Shown one piece after another: positions 1 through 5,031 of a DNA stretch of 11,090 bases. Within the stretch, counting starts at the first letter, position 1. Each line of letters begins with the position of its first letter. Where the stretch lies: positions 1 to 11,090 of the forward strand of contig MGQK01000053.1 of NCBI GenBank assembly GCA_001797815.1. Reading direction: 5' to 3'. The DNA comes from Deltaproteobacteria bacterium RBG_13_61_14 (GTDB taxonomy: Bacteria; RBG-13-61-14). A model generated the notes under the pieces. That model was given only the letters and a program-made list of their open reading frames with translations. It did no database searches and was not told the origin of the DNA. Position numbers and translations under genes: made by a program.

Positions 1-2789
1 TCCGGGTCGGCGGCCGGCGCAAGTTCTTCCTCGAAGCCAAAAAACCATCCCTCGACATCAAAAACAACCCCGAGCCCGCCTTCCAACTCCGCCGCTACGC
101 CTGGTCCGCCAAGCTCCCCCTCTCCATCCTCTCCGACTTCGAGGAGCTAGCGGTTTACGACTGCCGCCTCAAGCCCGAGCCTGGCGACCCGGCCGCGGCC
201 GGCCGCGTCTTCTTTTACCGCTACCCCGATTACCTCGAGCGCTGGCCCGAGCTTGAGGGCGTCTTTTCCAAGGAGGCCGTGCTCAAAGGCAGCTTCGATA
301 AATTCGCCGAGTCCGCCAAAAAGAAAAAAGGCACCGCCGAGGTTGACGCCGCCTTCTTGAAAGAGATCGAGTCCTGGCGCGAAGCCCTCGCTAAAAATAT
401 CGCGCTCCGGAACCCCAGACTCACGAACCGCGAGCTTAACTTCGCGGTCCAGGCCACCTTGGACCGCATCATCTTCATCCGCATCTGCGAGGACCGAGGC
501 ATCGAAAATTACGGCATCCTCCAGGCCCTGCTCAACGGCCAGAATCTCTACCGCCGACTCTTCCAGCTCTTCGATCATGCCGACGATAAATACAACTCCG
601 GCCTCTTCCACTTCAAACCCGAAAAAGACCGGCCCGAACCCGATACCCTCACCCCCCGCCTCAACGTGGACGACAAGCCGCTCAAGGAAATCCTCAAGCG
701 GCTTTACTATCCGGAAAGCCCTTACGAGTTTTCGGTCCTGCCCGCGGATATCCTGGGCCAGGTTTACGAGCAGTTCCTGGGCAAAGTCATCCGCCTCACC
801 GCCGGGCACCAGGCCAAAGTCGAGGACAAGCCCGAGGTCAAAAAAGCCGGCGGGGTCTATTACACGCCCACCTATATCGTGGATTACATCGTCAAGAACA
901 CGGTTGGCAGACTCCTGGAAGGCAAAACTCCTGAAAATGTAGCCGCGACCGCTCCTCGGTCGCGGAAGGTGTCAGGCAAGAAAAAGCAGGGTGGGGCAGA
1001 CATTCCTGTCTGCCAACCTTTGAGAATCTTGGATCCCGCCTGCGGCTCCGGCTCCTTCCTCCTCGGCGCTTACCAATACCTCCTCGACTGGTATCTGGAT
1101 CAGCACCTGAAGCAAGTCCCCGAAAAACATCGGGACAAGCTTTACGAAATCCCCCGGGCCGACGCTTCTTTTCCGTCAACCAGGAACCAGGAACCGCGAA
1201 CCACGAACCGTTCTTACCGCCTCACCACCGCCGAACGCAAACGCATCCTCCTCGATCACGTCTTCGGCGTGGACATTGACCCCCAGGCGGTGGAAGTCAC
1301 AAAACTCTCCCTGCTCCTCAAATGCCTCGAAGGCGAGACCGAAGAGACCCTCAAGCAAATGATGCTCTTCCACAAAGAGCGGGCACTCCCCGACCTCTCC
1401 CACAACATCCAGTGCGGCAACTCCCTGATCGGCCCGGACTTCTACCAGCAAAAACAACTCAGCCTGATTGACGAAGAAGAAAGGTACCGAATCAATGTCT
1501 TTGACTGGAAGACCGGCTTTCCCGAAGTCTTCAAAGGCGACAACCCCGGCTTCGATGTGGTCATAGGGAATCCGCCGTATGGGGCAGAATTTTCCGAAAA
1601 TACATATGATTACCTAAAGCGTAATTTCGAAACCTATGTCTTGCGTGGAGAAAGTTATTTAATTTTTGTAGAGAAAGTGATCAACTTGCTCAAGATTGGA
1701 GGAATTTTAGGTTATATTATTCCTGATACTTACCTTAATCTCACTTTTACGCAAGTATTACGCAATTTTCTTCTTAAGAATACAGATATTATGGAAATTG
1801 TGCAGTTGCCATCTAGAGTGTTCCCTGGAACAACTGTCGATACAACATTACTATTTGTTCATCGAGTTCCGCAATCCTTAACATTCATTGATTCAAATAT
1901 AATAGTAAAGCTTTTTAATAAAAATGAAAAGCTATCTTCTATAGATGCGCCTGCCAAGACATTTCAATCAAAAACAAAGTTATGGCATGAACAAGGATCA
2001 TTTAACTTGCAAGCAAGCCCTTCGGAATATTATCTTCTTTCTATTATTGAAAAAGATAAATATATGCTATCAGCTTTTGCAGAAATGTTCTCTGGAATTA
2101 AGGCCTATGAGGTTGGCAAAGGAAGTCCTCCTCAAACAAAACTCATTAGAGATACAAAGCCCTTCACTTCAGATGTATGTAGAGATAAATCATTTAAACC
2201 ATTTTATGACGGGAAACACATCGGCCGTTATCAATTGATCTGGCAGAATAATAATTGGATTAAATACGGAGAATGGCTTGCAGCTCCTCGCTCTCAATAT
2301 AATTTTGAAGGTGAAAAGTTATTAGTTCGAAAAATCGTAGGTAAGACGCTTATTGCAACCTATATTCCTGATACTTCATATTGCAATACTTTAACGCATA
2401 TAATTAAGCTTCTCTCAAATACTCATTTTTTATATAAATATCTCCTTGGAATTATTAACTCAACTCTGATAGGATGGTATTTTAAAAAGAAGTTCCAAAT
2501 TAGCTGTGAAGATACTTTTCCACAAATAATGATAGAAGATATTATGAAATTTCCCATTAAAAATATTAACATTGATAATGATATTGACAAGCAAATGCAC
2601 GATCGAATGGTTGAATTAGTCGAGACGATGTTGGATTTGCACAAGCGGAAGGCGGCGGCGAAGGTTCCGGCGGAGCGGGAGGCGATAGAGCGGCAGATAG
2701 CGGCCACGGATCGGGAGATAGATGGTCTTGTTTATGAGTTATACGGATTAACGGATGAGGAGATCAAGATTGTGGAAGGTGAACCTTGA
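1..2789 (+). CDS. Type IIG restriction-modification enzyme (Eco57I-like nuclease/N6-adenine methyltransferase/TRD), 5' partial
   Basis: The frame is open from base 3 to the TGA at 2787-2789 (928 residues visible), so the true start lies upstream; the GTG at 279 is internal. A single chain of this type cuts DNA and methylates adenine at one target site. The visible N-terminus has FFLEAKKP (Glu11, Lys13), the E-x-K half of a PD-ExK nuclease. The methyltransferase follows: GGVYYTP at about 283 (motif X), DPACGSGSF at 344 (SAM-binding motif I), GVDIDPQAVEVTKLSLLLK near 424 (motif II) and NPPY at 523 (catalytic motif IV of N6-adenine enzymes). The AT-rich C-terminal part, with FYDGKHIGRYQL, fits a TaqI/Eco57I-type target recognition domain, and a charged helical tail ends it. 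Oddities: in-frame palindromes and a heptad array at about 930-1212, and GC-rich/AT-rich/GC-rich mosaicism. The family assignment is firm; the target site cannot be read from sequence. No frameshift is seen, so it may be active. Confidence 0.93.
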   Translation, partial: RVGGRRKFFLEAKKPSLDIKNNPEPAFQLRRYAWSAKLPLSILSDFEELAVYDCRLKPEPGDPAAAGRVFFYRYPDYLERWPELEGVFSKEAVLKGSFDKFAESAKKKKGTAEVDAAFLKEIESWREALAKNIALRNPRLTNRELNFAVQATLDRIIFIRICEDRGIENYGILQALLNGQNLYRRLFQLFDHADDKYNSGLFHFKPEKDRPEPDTLTPRLNVDDKPLKEILKRLYYPESPYEFSVLPADILGQVYEQFLGKVIRLTAGHQAKVEDKPEVKKAGGVYYTPTYIVDYIVKNTVGRLLEGKTPENVAATAPRSRKVSGKKKQGGADIPVCQPLRILDPACGSGSFLLGAYQYLLDWYLDQHLKQVPEKHRDKLYEIPRADASFPSTRNQEPRTTNRSYRLTTAERKRILLDHVFGVDIDPQAVEVTKLSLLLKCLEGETEETLKQMMLFHKERALPDLSHNIQCGNSLIGPDFYQQKQLSLIDEEERYRINVFDWKTGFPEVFKGDNPGFDVVIGNPPYGAEFSENTYDYLKRNFETYVLRGESYLIFVEKVINLLKIGGILGYIIPDTYLNLTFTQVLRNFLLKNTDIMEIVQLPSRVFPGTTVDTTLLFVHRVPQSLTFIDSNIIVKLFNKNEKLSSIDAPAKTFQSKTKLWHEQGSFNLQASPSEYYLLSIIEKDKYMLSAFAEMFSGIKAYEVGKGSPPQTKLIRDTKPFTSDVCRDKSFKPFYDGKHIGRYQLIWQNNNWIKYGEWLAAPRSQYNFEGEKLLVRKIVGKTLIATYIPDTSYCNTLTHIIKLLSNTHFLYKYLLGIINSTLIGWYFKKKFQISCEDTFPQIMIEDIMKFPIKNINIDNDIDKQMHDRMVELVETMLDLHKRKAAAKVPAEREAIERQIAATDREIDGLVYELYGLTDEEIKIVEGEP
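943..965. repeat. Palindromic element inside the methyltransferase gene (9-bp perfect stem)
   Basis: CCGCGACCG (943-951) pairs perfectly with CGGTCGCGG (957-965) across a CTCCT loop. It lies in frame between motif X and motif I of the R-M gene and encodes part of the stretch AATAPRSRKV. Relatives usually pass from the LLEGKTP helix to the DPACGSG motif through a short linker, so this looks like an insertion that adds codons without breaking the frame. Confidence 0.8.
995..1014. repeat. Second in-frame palindromic element (8-bp perfect stem)
   Basis: GGCAGACA (995-1002) and TGTCTGCC (1007-1014) form a perfect 8-bp stem with a TTCC loop. It encodes GGADIPVC immediately before LRILDPACGSG. I recall this phrase as a recurrent dispersed element in environmental bacterial genomes; that is recollection, not a search. 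With the palindrome at 943-965 it makes up most of an approximately 28-codon in-frame insertion. Confidence 0.8.
1116..1136. repeat. Third in-frame palindrome (7-bp stem with one bulge)
   Basis: GTCCC(C)GA at 1116-1123 pairs with TCGGGAC at 1130-1136, leaving one bulged C and an AAAACA loop. It is translated as VPEKHRDK within the R-M protein, between methyltransferase motifs I and II. It is weaker than the other two palindromes but sits in the same short interval. Confidence 0.55.
1178..1212 (+). repeat. Heptameric tandem array (5 x 7 bp, AACCNNN), in coding sequence
   Basis: AACC recurs at exactly 1178, 1185, 1192, 1199 and 1206, with variable three-base spacers (AGG, AGG, GCG, ACG, GTT). 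Thirty-five bases are not a multiple of three, yet the frame stays open and yields STRNQEPRTTNRS. This low-complexity segment precedes the conserved TTAERKRILLDHVFGVDID stretch of the methyltransferase. It belongs to the same repeat style as the array at 2792-2823. Confidence 0.8.
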
Positions 2790-2791
2790 TA

Positions 2792-2823
2792 AACCGTGAA
2801 CCGCGAACCGTTAACCGTGAACT
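2792..2823 (+). repeat. Heptameric array (AACCGNN) at the junction of two R-M gene tails
   Basis: AACC occurs at 2792, 2799, 2806 and 2813, with a last degenerate copy AACT at 2820, a strict 7-bp period. It begins two bases after the stop of the R-M gene and ends where similarity to the duplicated tail begins, so it marks the recombination junction. Confidence 0.8.
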
Positions 2824-2893
2824 GGAAAATGAGTTGTATGGGTTGACGGAGGAAGAGATCAAGATAGTTGAGGGAGAGCATAGGAATGAATGA
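2822..2893 (+). pseudogene. Relic of the 3' end of a second, homologous type IIG R-M gene
   Basis: Read from 2822, this frame gives LENELYGLTEEEIKIVEGEHRNE and then TGA at 2891-2893. The 16 residues at 2831-2878 match the final residues of the intact R-M gene (2736-2783) at 15 of 16 positions, while the DNA matches at only 37 of 48, almost all changes being synonymous. It therefore derives from a separately evolving homologous gene, not a recent tandem copy. No start or body remains, and it is in a different frame from the upstream gene. Its stop overlaps the ATG of the next gene (ATGAATGA), a normal operon arrangement, so the downstream gene was probably coupled to this lost R-M gene. Confidence 0.75.
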
Positions 2894-3839
2894 TGATCCA
2901 AAGATAAAATATGAAGAATTTCTCAAGCTTTCTTACCCTCCTGATCTGGTCGAAAGGTTAAAAACAATTAGTCTAGATGATAAATGGCTTTGGGATTACT
3001 TTAATTTGAGATCAAATTATCAGATATATTCCGATTCCTTTGATAGAGAGATAGCTCAATATCAAAAAGAGCATCCCCTTAATATACCTTTTCATCAACT
3101 AAAAAAGCTTGCTGATGGTAGTGCATTAAAATCATACTTTATTACTATTTTACAAATGAAACAAACCTATGCTAAACTAGTCATAGAAACCAAATACGCT
3201 ATAAACTTCTTTCTTGCTTTGCTAATAAGGCTCGAAGATGTTATAAAGGCGAATAAGATTAGTTTCGAAGAAATGCATAATATAGCAGAAACAATGTCAT
3301 TAGTGACCAGTAACATTGTCCCCAATTGCCTTACTCTAGAATTTGAAAGGACAATTAAAACTATCGAGCTTATCTCAGTTCCAGTTATTGAATCAATCTA
3401 TAAAAACATTCTGCTTGAACTAGGCATGTTGTATAGAATACCAGACCTCAAGGGAAAATCAATAGGCTATATAAAAGAGAAAGTTAAAAATCAAAAGGGT
3501 TTTGTGACTCTGCTAGACTTTCTTTTTGACCCAGATATACTACTCTTGAGAAACTCGATAGCCCACAAAGACTATGAAATTGATTATGAAACTAAGCTCA
3601 TAACTTTGAGAAAAGATGGTAATCGCATAAAGTCATGTAACGTTAGTGATATTTTCAACATAATAGAAAAAGTGCTAACTATGAATGCTGGCTATTTGAT
3701 AGCAAAGAATGCGATGACCTTTTTGCTTGATCATTGTCAGTTCTTTAAAATTCAGCTAGATGATAAATCTATACACGTCAAGATTAGTCGTTCTTATGTC
3801 AAATTGAATCATTTGAATATCATCATTAAATTGGAATGA
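2886..3839 (+). CDS. Putative HEPN-domain protein linked to the R-M locus (function unknown)
   Basis: This is a 317-residue, AT-rich, mostly helical-looking protein without signal peptide or membrane segment, so probably cytoplasmic. I choose ATG 2886 over the TTG at 2868 because AGGGAG (2871-2876) is well placed before it and because it overlaps the stop of the R-M relic. Residues 222-227 in LLLRNSIAHKDY form R-N-x3-H, the Rx4-6H signature of HEPN domains, within a Leu/Ile-rich helix as in that superfamily. HEPN proteins are often metal-independent RNases acting in toxin-antitoxin, abortive-infection or CRISPR systems. The N-terminal about 150 residues I do not recognise. The HEPN call rests on one motif plus context; it could be a non-catalytic HEPN or an unrelated helical protein. 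Its base composition matches the R-M recognition domain, suggesting joint transfer. Confidence 0.6.
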   Translation: MNDDPKIKYEEFLKLSYPPDLVERLKTISLDDKWLWDYFNLRSNYQIYSDSFDREIAQYQKEHPLNIPFHQLKKLADGSALKSYFITILQMKQTYAKLVIETKYAINFFLALLIRLEDVIKANKISFEEMHNIAETMSLVTSNIVPNCLTLEFERTIKTIELISVPVIESIYKNILLELGMLYRIPDLKGKSIGYIKEKVKNQKGFVTLLDFLFDPDILLLRNSIAHKDYEIDYETKLITLRKDGNRIKSCNVSDIFNIIEKVLTMNAGYLIAKNAMTFLLDHCQFFKIQLDDKSIHVKISRSYVKLNHLNIIIKLE

Positions 3840-3852
3840 TTTAACTGAAGAT

Positions 3853-3913
3853 TGGGGTCAGAGCTTCACATGAAACTTAACTCAGTTATCTTCTAAGTGA
3901 AGCTCTGACCCCA
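3853..3913. repeat. REP-like perfect inverted repeat, 17-bp arms, 27-nt loop
   Basis: TGGGGTCAGAGCTTCAC (3853-3869) is perfectly complementary to GTGAAGCTCTGACCCCA (3897-3913). The GGGGTCAG/CTGACCCC ends recall the palindromes that surround REP-associated (Y1/RAYT) transposases in several phyla, but no transposase is in the window. It starts 14 bases after the HEPN-like gene stops. It could act as a transcript-end hairpin, though no T-run follows. The TGA at 3898-3900 in its right arm closes the downstream reading frame. Confidence 0.85.
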
Positions 3914-4668
3914 GATGCCCTTTTCAAGCACCAGATTGTGTTTATGGTTGGATTTTAAAGGCGAAGTCAAATCAGATTAGAAAAATCGTAAGGAACATAA
4001 ATGCTAGAAACCCACGGATTTTCAACAAGCTTAGATTAAATCAGATATCATGGTATAATTTATCATTTAAAATTCATTCATATTATAATCCAGACGAAAA
4101 GAAGGTTGAAGAAATAGCAAGGGCATTTTCTGATTTATGGTCGAGGTTTTGTCGTGATTTTCTGAACTATATGAATGTTAATGAATACAATAGCTTTAAG
4201 CATGGCTTTAGATTTGCTTTAGGTGGATTTGAATTAGCCTTCGGAAAAGAAGAAAACCCTGGCGTGCAAGCTCCCCCAGAAAAAATGCACTCAATAGGAC
4301 GGAATGAATTGGGCACCTCATTTCTTGTTGCAGAAAAAATTGAAGGAGCTCCTAATGAAAAACCTGATTGTCACTTTACAACAAACAAATATTCGCTTAA
4401 TTGGGATCCTGAAAACATGTCGTATGGTCTTTTATTAATATCCATGTCAATAAATAATGTGCTTTCTTATTTAAAGATATTTAATGGAACGTCGCCATCT
4501 GTATGTTTATTTGAACGTCCTCAGAATCTTGATGATTTTTATAGACCATGGAAAAATGCCGTTGGTGTTAGGGAATGCTCCATTAATCCAATAATAAATG
4601 AATATGAGATTAAGAGATATACTAAGCAGGAAATCTTGGAGAATCTAAAGAAATGGTCGGCAGATTAA
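3901..4668 (+). pseudogene. 5'-truncated unknown gene (coding-like frame without a start)
   Basis: The frame is open from 3901 to the TAA at 4666-4668 (255 codons). Before ATG 4171 it has no ATG, GTG or TTG, although 3901-4170 translates to plausible protein (RCPFQAPDCVYGWILKAKS onward) with the same AT-rich codon style. The upstream edge coincides with the right arm of the palindrome, so the original 5' end was probably removed when the repeat arrived or recombined. Translation from ATG 4171 would give a 165-residue remnant, but there is no good ribosome-binding site before it. I do not recognise the family. The stretch EYNSFKHGFRFALGG resembles N-x-x-K-H-G helices seen in some HEPN-like proteins, which is only a hint. 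A gene starting at an unusual codon is the alternative. Confidence 0.6.
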
Positions 4669-4702
4669 AGATTTTAACAGCAAAATGCGAAAAATCGCAA
4701 GA

Positions 4703-4732
4703 ATTGGGGTCAGATCTAAACATAAAACATAA
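4703..4732 (+). repeat. Diverged direct copy of the palindrome's left arm
   Basis: ATTGGGGTCAGA and the following bases at 4703-4732 align without gaps to 3851-3880, with about six mismatches in 30. The match extends past the stem into the loop (CATAAAACATAA against CATGAAACTTAA). The two copies bracket the truncated gene, 852 bases apart. No matching right arm is seen after it. Confidence 0.7.
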
Positions 4733-4753
4733 GAAGCAGTGGACAGGGAAGGA

Positions 4754-4996: not shown

Positions 4997-5031
4997 CCAC
5001 TGTCCACCGTCCACTGTCCACTGTCCACTAT
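4997..5031 (+). repeat. Heptameric array (5 x 7 bp, CCACTGT)
   Basis: CCAC occurs at 4997, 5004, 5011, 5018 and 5025, followed by TGT, CGT, TGT, TGT and TAT. The array ends on the first base of the minus-strand porin stop codon, so it sits directly at the gene's 3' end. Confidence 0.85.

Follow-up and report, generated by a model that had tools for sequence, protein, structure and literature searches.

The window, a stretch of 11,090 bases, corresponds to positions 1-11,090 of contig C53 (151,101 bases) in a genome of 4.74 Mb. It opens with a type IIG restriction-modification (R-M) gene, which is followed by the gene of a putative effector, P0001 (Table 1). The R-M gene product matched the Pfam families Eco57I (8e-38), N6_Mtase (1e-18) and TaqI_C (2e-17) and the PADLOC model REase_MTase_IIG (5e-163). 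Nuclease, N6-adenine methylase and target-recognition domain (TRD) are united in a single chain, which is the criterion for a type IIG enzyme; the initial part of the nuclease domain lies beyond the contig edge in the window and is present in the paralogue P0002. The gene is a standard member of the Eco57I/TaqI_C kind, but these enzymes are usually treated as one-gene systems, whereas here an apparently exchangeable gene is added downstream. The GC content is 58% in the head of the type IIG gene and 32% in the effector gene.

Table 1 Features at the type IIG locus (positions in the window)
Feature	Position	Strand	Remarks
Type IIG R-M gene	3..2789	+	5' end lost at contig start; EAK nuclease motif, N6-adenine methylase (DPACGSG, NPPY), TaqI-like TRD
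Target-recognition region	1581..2620	+	AT-rich (32% GC); DNA unrelated to that of the C33 paralogue; exchanged block
Duplicated, decayed type IIG 3' tail (relic)	2786..2893	+	Left boundary of the cassette; from C33 alignment and translation
Putative HEPN effector P0001, 317 aa	2886..3839	+	ESIYK at 169-173, RNSIAH at 222-227
Inverted-repeat (MITE-like) element	3846..3918		Right boundary of the cassette; 73/73 identical copy after the C33 HEPN gene
Second accessory gene remnant P0007, 5'-truncated	3917..4668	+	Full-length relative on a Deinococcus plasmid

The P0001 frame extends over 317 codons from the ATG at 2886 to the stop at 3839 and encodes R222-N-S-I-A-H227. The longest stop-free run in 1,000 Markov trials of equal AT-rich composition was 180 codons (mean 84), and the codon-position composition of P0001 was above that of all 2,000 shuffles. 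Since both the length of the frame and its codon-position composition beat the controls, we consider P0001 to be a real coding gene. The 317-residue protein with an Rx4H motif (R222...H227) given in the preliminary description was therefore confirmed, its true frame being 2886-3839. The same description had the ATG overlapping the stop of an R-M gene relic, and this was also found: the 3' tail of the type IIG gene (ELYGLTEEEIKIVEGE) recurs at 2822-2893, and the TGA of the relic frame (2891-2893) comes after the effector ATG, which results in an 8-nt overlap. This relic is distinct from the R-M gene, however. The stop codon of the intact type IIG gene is located at 2787-2789, and 96 nt including the relic separate the end of this gene from the effector ATG. 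The translational coupling to the type IIG gene that had been claimed was consequently abandoned as a demonstrated feature of the window. Translational re-initiation may be possible via a 35-codon frame (TTG at 2786 to TGA at 2893), which overlaps both the type IIG stop and the effector ATG. The paralogous locus on C33 has the same relic behind its type IIG gene, but the counterpart frame contains an early in-frame stop. Because the frame is not conserved in C33, we do not count coupling through it as established.

Three paralogous type IIG genes, alike in their heads, are present in the genome, and the gene behind each of them is a different one, AT-rich in every case. The type IIG head of C33 is 93% identical in DNA to that of the window. 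Comparison of the window with C33 by blastn detected similarity in the head (1-1581), in the tail together with the relic (2598-2868, 82%) and in the 73-base element behind the effector (3847-3919, 73/73), and none in the recognition domain and the effector. Since only these two blocks lack similarity between C53 and C33, we conclude that the recognition domain and the effector were exchanged between homologous loci. The paralogous loci thus share a slot with conserved boundaries and differing cargo, and P0001 is very probably an exchangeable effector cassette in this slot directly behind the type IIG gene. The simplest idea for the mechanism is that exchange would proceed by homologous recombination between the type IIG tail and the repeat. 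The MITE-like inverted-repeat element (TTGGGGTCAGAGCTTCAC...) and its fragments (GGGGTCAGATCTAAACATAAAACAT) occur at 3846-3918 and 4699-4738. The genome has four near-full copies of it besides many partial ones, some of them at sites unrelated to defence.

The cargo of the C33 slot is P0004, a 521-aa protein with TPRs, a Pfam match to HEPN_LA2681 (1.1e-38) and the motif RNRLTH. Among 386 diverse genomes, 3 contained HEPN_LA2681, and the genome studied has a single copy, P0004. As this family is rare and there are three type IIG genes among several thousand genes, the position of P0004 behind one of them is unlikely to be due to chance. This member of HEPN_LA2681 (PF18733, TPR-HEPN) holds the slot equivalent to that of P0001, but P0001 has neither TPRs nor a match to the LA2681 profile and shows no motif-to-motif similarity to P0004. 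At the C12 locus (L022 7383-9282), the type IIG stop and the P0005 start codon overlap in an ATGA, and P0006, whose family was not recognised, comes next. P0005 gave weak deoxyribosyltransferase/TIR matches under the curated cut-offs. The type IIG gene, P0005 and P0006 probably form a three-gene defence operon. A same-strand accessory gene directly behind the type IIG gene was thus found in all three paralogues as well as in close relatives. It seems that each of the three closely related enzymes is accompanied by a back-up effector that can be exchanged, the P0001 gene being one such cassette.

The assignment of P0001 to the HEPN superfamily has to be weighed separately. HEPN proteins have a polar residue after the arginine of the motif, which ends helix 3, and an Ex3[KR] element in an earlier helix; a β-hairpin at the equivalent place was reported for Csx1 (Anantharaman et al. 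2013, PMC3710099). The rule Rx4-6H with N, D or H after R is satisfied by R222-N-S-I-A-H227. In a single-sequence AF2 model of low confidence (pLDDT 59), the predicted helix 216-226 ends at RNSIAH and is followed by a β-hairpin, and ESIYK (ExxxK) at 169-173 lies in a helix before it; this ExxxK weighs little since it is common in helices. The HEPN reading is likely: RNSIAH with N in second place, the predicted helix that stops there, the β-hairpin and ExxxK speak for it, and the genomic context does so most strongly. P0001 could also be some other helical accessory protein in which RNSIAH arose by coincidence. We consider this unlikely, although the loose Rx4H pattern is common and profile, sequence and fold searches lent P0001 no support. 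Searches of Pfam, PADLOC, NCBIfam and PDB sequences gave no significant match, and homologues were likewise not detected among plasmids, phages, viral contigs, GTDB contigs and about 1,200 genomes, in a collection that included three genomes from the source phylum. The PDB match 7b3a was weak (E 0.04) and was set aside, and weak matches in the 386 genomes (ABC-transporter ATPases, a sugar-kinase-like protein and out-of-frame pieces) were judged to be due to chance. AF2 without relatives reached a pLDDT of 41 for the whole protein and 59 for its C-terminal part. Foldseek and VIA-align searches with this low-confidence C-terminal model gave no clear match and no HEPN chain among the matches listed, which is not evidence against the dimeric four-helix bundle of HEPN proteins. 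Comparison of P0001 with other slot proteins by hhalign yielded no convincing match. Against coincidence speak the rarity of the stricter motif RN.[ILVMF].H (4 of 607 control flank genes), the placement of the P0001 motif where HEPN motifs sit and the Pfam-verified HEPN domain in the paralogous slot. Altogether, P0001 is probably a HEPN RNase, an enzyme type whose metal-independent activity depends on the R and H of the motif.

Relatives of the type IIG gene were collected from GTDB contigs (427 in total), and the best 80 of the 427 were kept. Downstream DNA extended for 600 nt or more in 73 of these 80, and in 51 a gene on the same strand and encoding 100 aa or more lay no further than 450 nt downstream. 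The downstream genes showed an average drop in GC content relative to the type IIG head of 8.5 points, compared with 1.5 points for the upstream genes (p 2e-6); the latter were mostly ordinary but are an imperfect control, as some match PADLOC models. The families detected downstream, beside ordinary genes, included HEPN_AbiV, PycC-type cyclases (two), SIR2, HipA, Mrr_N, DUF3800 (two), PBECR2 (two), BrnT, PIN, GmrSD_N, Vsr and an RTasHEPN-like gene. Toxin or defence families account for a minority of the 51 genes, and many type IIG relatives lack an effector or have an ordinary gene downstream. Pycsar-type nucleotide cyclase genes were observed directly behind type IIG genes at L024 10832-11590 and L077 3695-4648. 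Eight plasmid type IIG genes at 32-38% identity had no comparable effector gene behind them, and the slot therefore belongs to a part of the type IIG family.

The motif RN.[ILVMF].H, a pattern chosen post hoc after the motif had been seen, was enriched among the first downstream genes (5 of 51 vs 4 of 607 others; p 2e-4). After the homologous genes of L052 and L080 had been merged, the post hoc pattern still gave 4 of 50 (p 0.0017), and three control patterns were not over-represented among the first downstream genes. L052 (11560-12462) and L080 (10784-11692) encode, directly behind type IIG genes, homologous RNDLFH proteins without a family match. They come from a Nitrospirota and a Planctomycetota MAG, so that one RNxxxH gene is kept behind a type IIG gene across phyla, and they are a candidate new HEPN family. 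A distant relative of these proteins was noticed on Burkholderia plasmids.

These data modify the picture of a HEPN effector tied to a type IIG enzyme, as it was initially drawn. The tie is favoured by the context, that is, the Pfam HEPN in C33, the ATGA gene in C12 and AbiV-HEPN and RNxxxH proteins in the relatives, whereas the HEPN fold of P0001 itself could be addressed only with a poor model. A dedicated pairing of type IIG with HEPN was not upheld: the slot holds many effector types, the eight plasmid type IIG genes lack one, and none of the LA2681 HEPNs in the two other genomes stands beside a relative of the type IIG gene of the window. The effector slot is facultative and promiscuous. 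Functional coupling would agree with this, and so would a mere insertion hotspot.

In the mechanism that we propose, P0001 would be a HEPN RNase with R222 and H227 catalytic at the dimer interface, and its helical N-terminal part may serve as a sensor or restraint. The effector would be silent as long as the type IIG enzyme works. If restriction were blocked or overwhelmed, it would cut cellular or phage RNA and growth would stop ahead of phage spread. Back-up abortive infection functionally tied to the type IIG enzyme is a tentative proposal that we rate just short of an even judgement. On the explanation as a whole, in which P0001 is an exchangeable cassette encoding a HEPN RNase for back-up defence behind the type IIG enzyme, our judgement is evenly balanced. 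The same evidence may be read as a free-standing HEPN/Abi gene in a defence hotspot behind the type IIG gene, which would have a trigger of its own and be functionally independent of restriction. The great diversity of the slot content, the LA2681 HEPNs that occur without this R-M neighbour and the 96 nt with the relic between the two genes all fit such a gene, and flanking homology alone would suffice for cassette exchange. We nevertheless find it doubtful, because the effector is on the same strand as the type IIG gene, an AT-rich accessory gene fills the slot in 3 of 3 paralogues, and the ATGA overlap in C12 recurs as a -4 gap in 7 of the 51 relatives, including the RNxxxH gene of L080.

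R-M genes are known addiction elements, and toxin-like genes directly behind type IIG genes would suit a system in which the type IIG protein or its methylation acts as the antitoxin. The effector would then mainly stabilise the R-M locus, whose loss would harm the cell. This is quite improbable, since unrelated effectors swap behind a nearly identical type IIG head. Every swap would call for a new specific contact with the antitoxin, except where that contact is made by the TRD, which co-varies. Returning to back-up defence, its broadest form would make the type IIG clade a general platform with a plug-in slot, the R-M protein being sensor and first line. Interchangeable toxins (HEPN RNases, TIR/SIR2 NADases, nucleotide cyclases, kinases) would be swapped by tail/repeat recombination, released on restriction failure and possibly co-exchanged with the recognition domain. 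This generalisation is speculative and, in our opinion, rather unlikely.

PrrC, which accompanies the type Ic R-M system EcoprrI, is an RNase released on the inhibition of restriction. The release logic proposed for P0001 would be analogous, but the partner of PrrC is hsdRMS while that of P0001 is a single type IIG gene, and P0001 gave no Pfam match to the N-terminal ABC-ATPase that is fused to HEPN in PrrC/RloC. HEPN genes are also established in R-M operons, at least 16 HEPN clades being linked to R-M, and HEPN proteins were proposed in 2013 as a second line of defence by RNA cleavage when restriction fails (Anantharaman et al. 2013, PMC3710099). P0001 likewise is an Rx4H-bearing protein encoded beside an R-M gene. 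It differs from those cases in that its partner is a single-chain type IIG enzyme and its slot also accommodates TIR-like, SIR2, cyclase and other effectors. The term type IIG does not occur in PMC3710099, and no description of type IIG linked with HEPN effectors, or of a type IIG effector slot, was found in the open-licence literature; PMC10853773, the one paper that mentions both type IIG restriction and HEPN, names a type IIG structure in its references only. The pairing of HEPN with R-M in general is already known, and the slot behind the type IIG clade is the less expected part.

If the back-up reading is true, the enzymes of type IIG, which generally pass for one-gene systems, would be the front end of a two-layer defence in some lineages, and defence finders that halt at the type IIG gene would overlook the second layer. 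The slot is a place for finding new toxins because known families do not cover several of its genes. As natural replicates within one genome, the three paralogues combine a near-constant enzyme with a swapped recognition domain and effector, and this makes the two-layer idea testable.

Some minor observations concern the surrounding DNA. Micro-repeats of the ACCGTGAACCGCGAACCG and GTCCACTGTCCACCGTCC type are present at 1177-1212, 2792-2820 and 4998-5030, in intergenic DNA and also inside the type IIG frame. The full-length relative of P0007, WP_126353448.1, is encoded within a DNA methyltransferase operon on pRadio3 of Deinococcus radiophilus, and the motif N-S-[IF]-K-H-G-[LF]-R is conserved.
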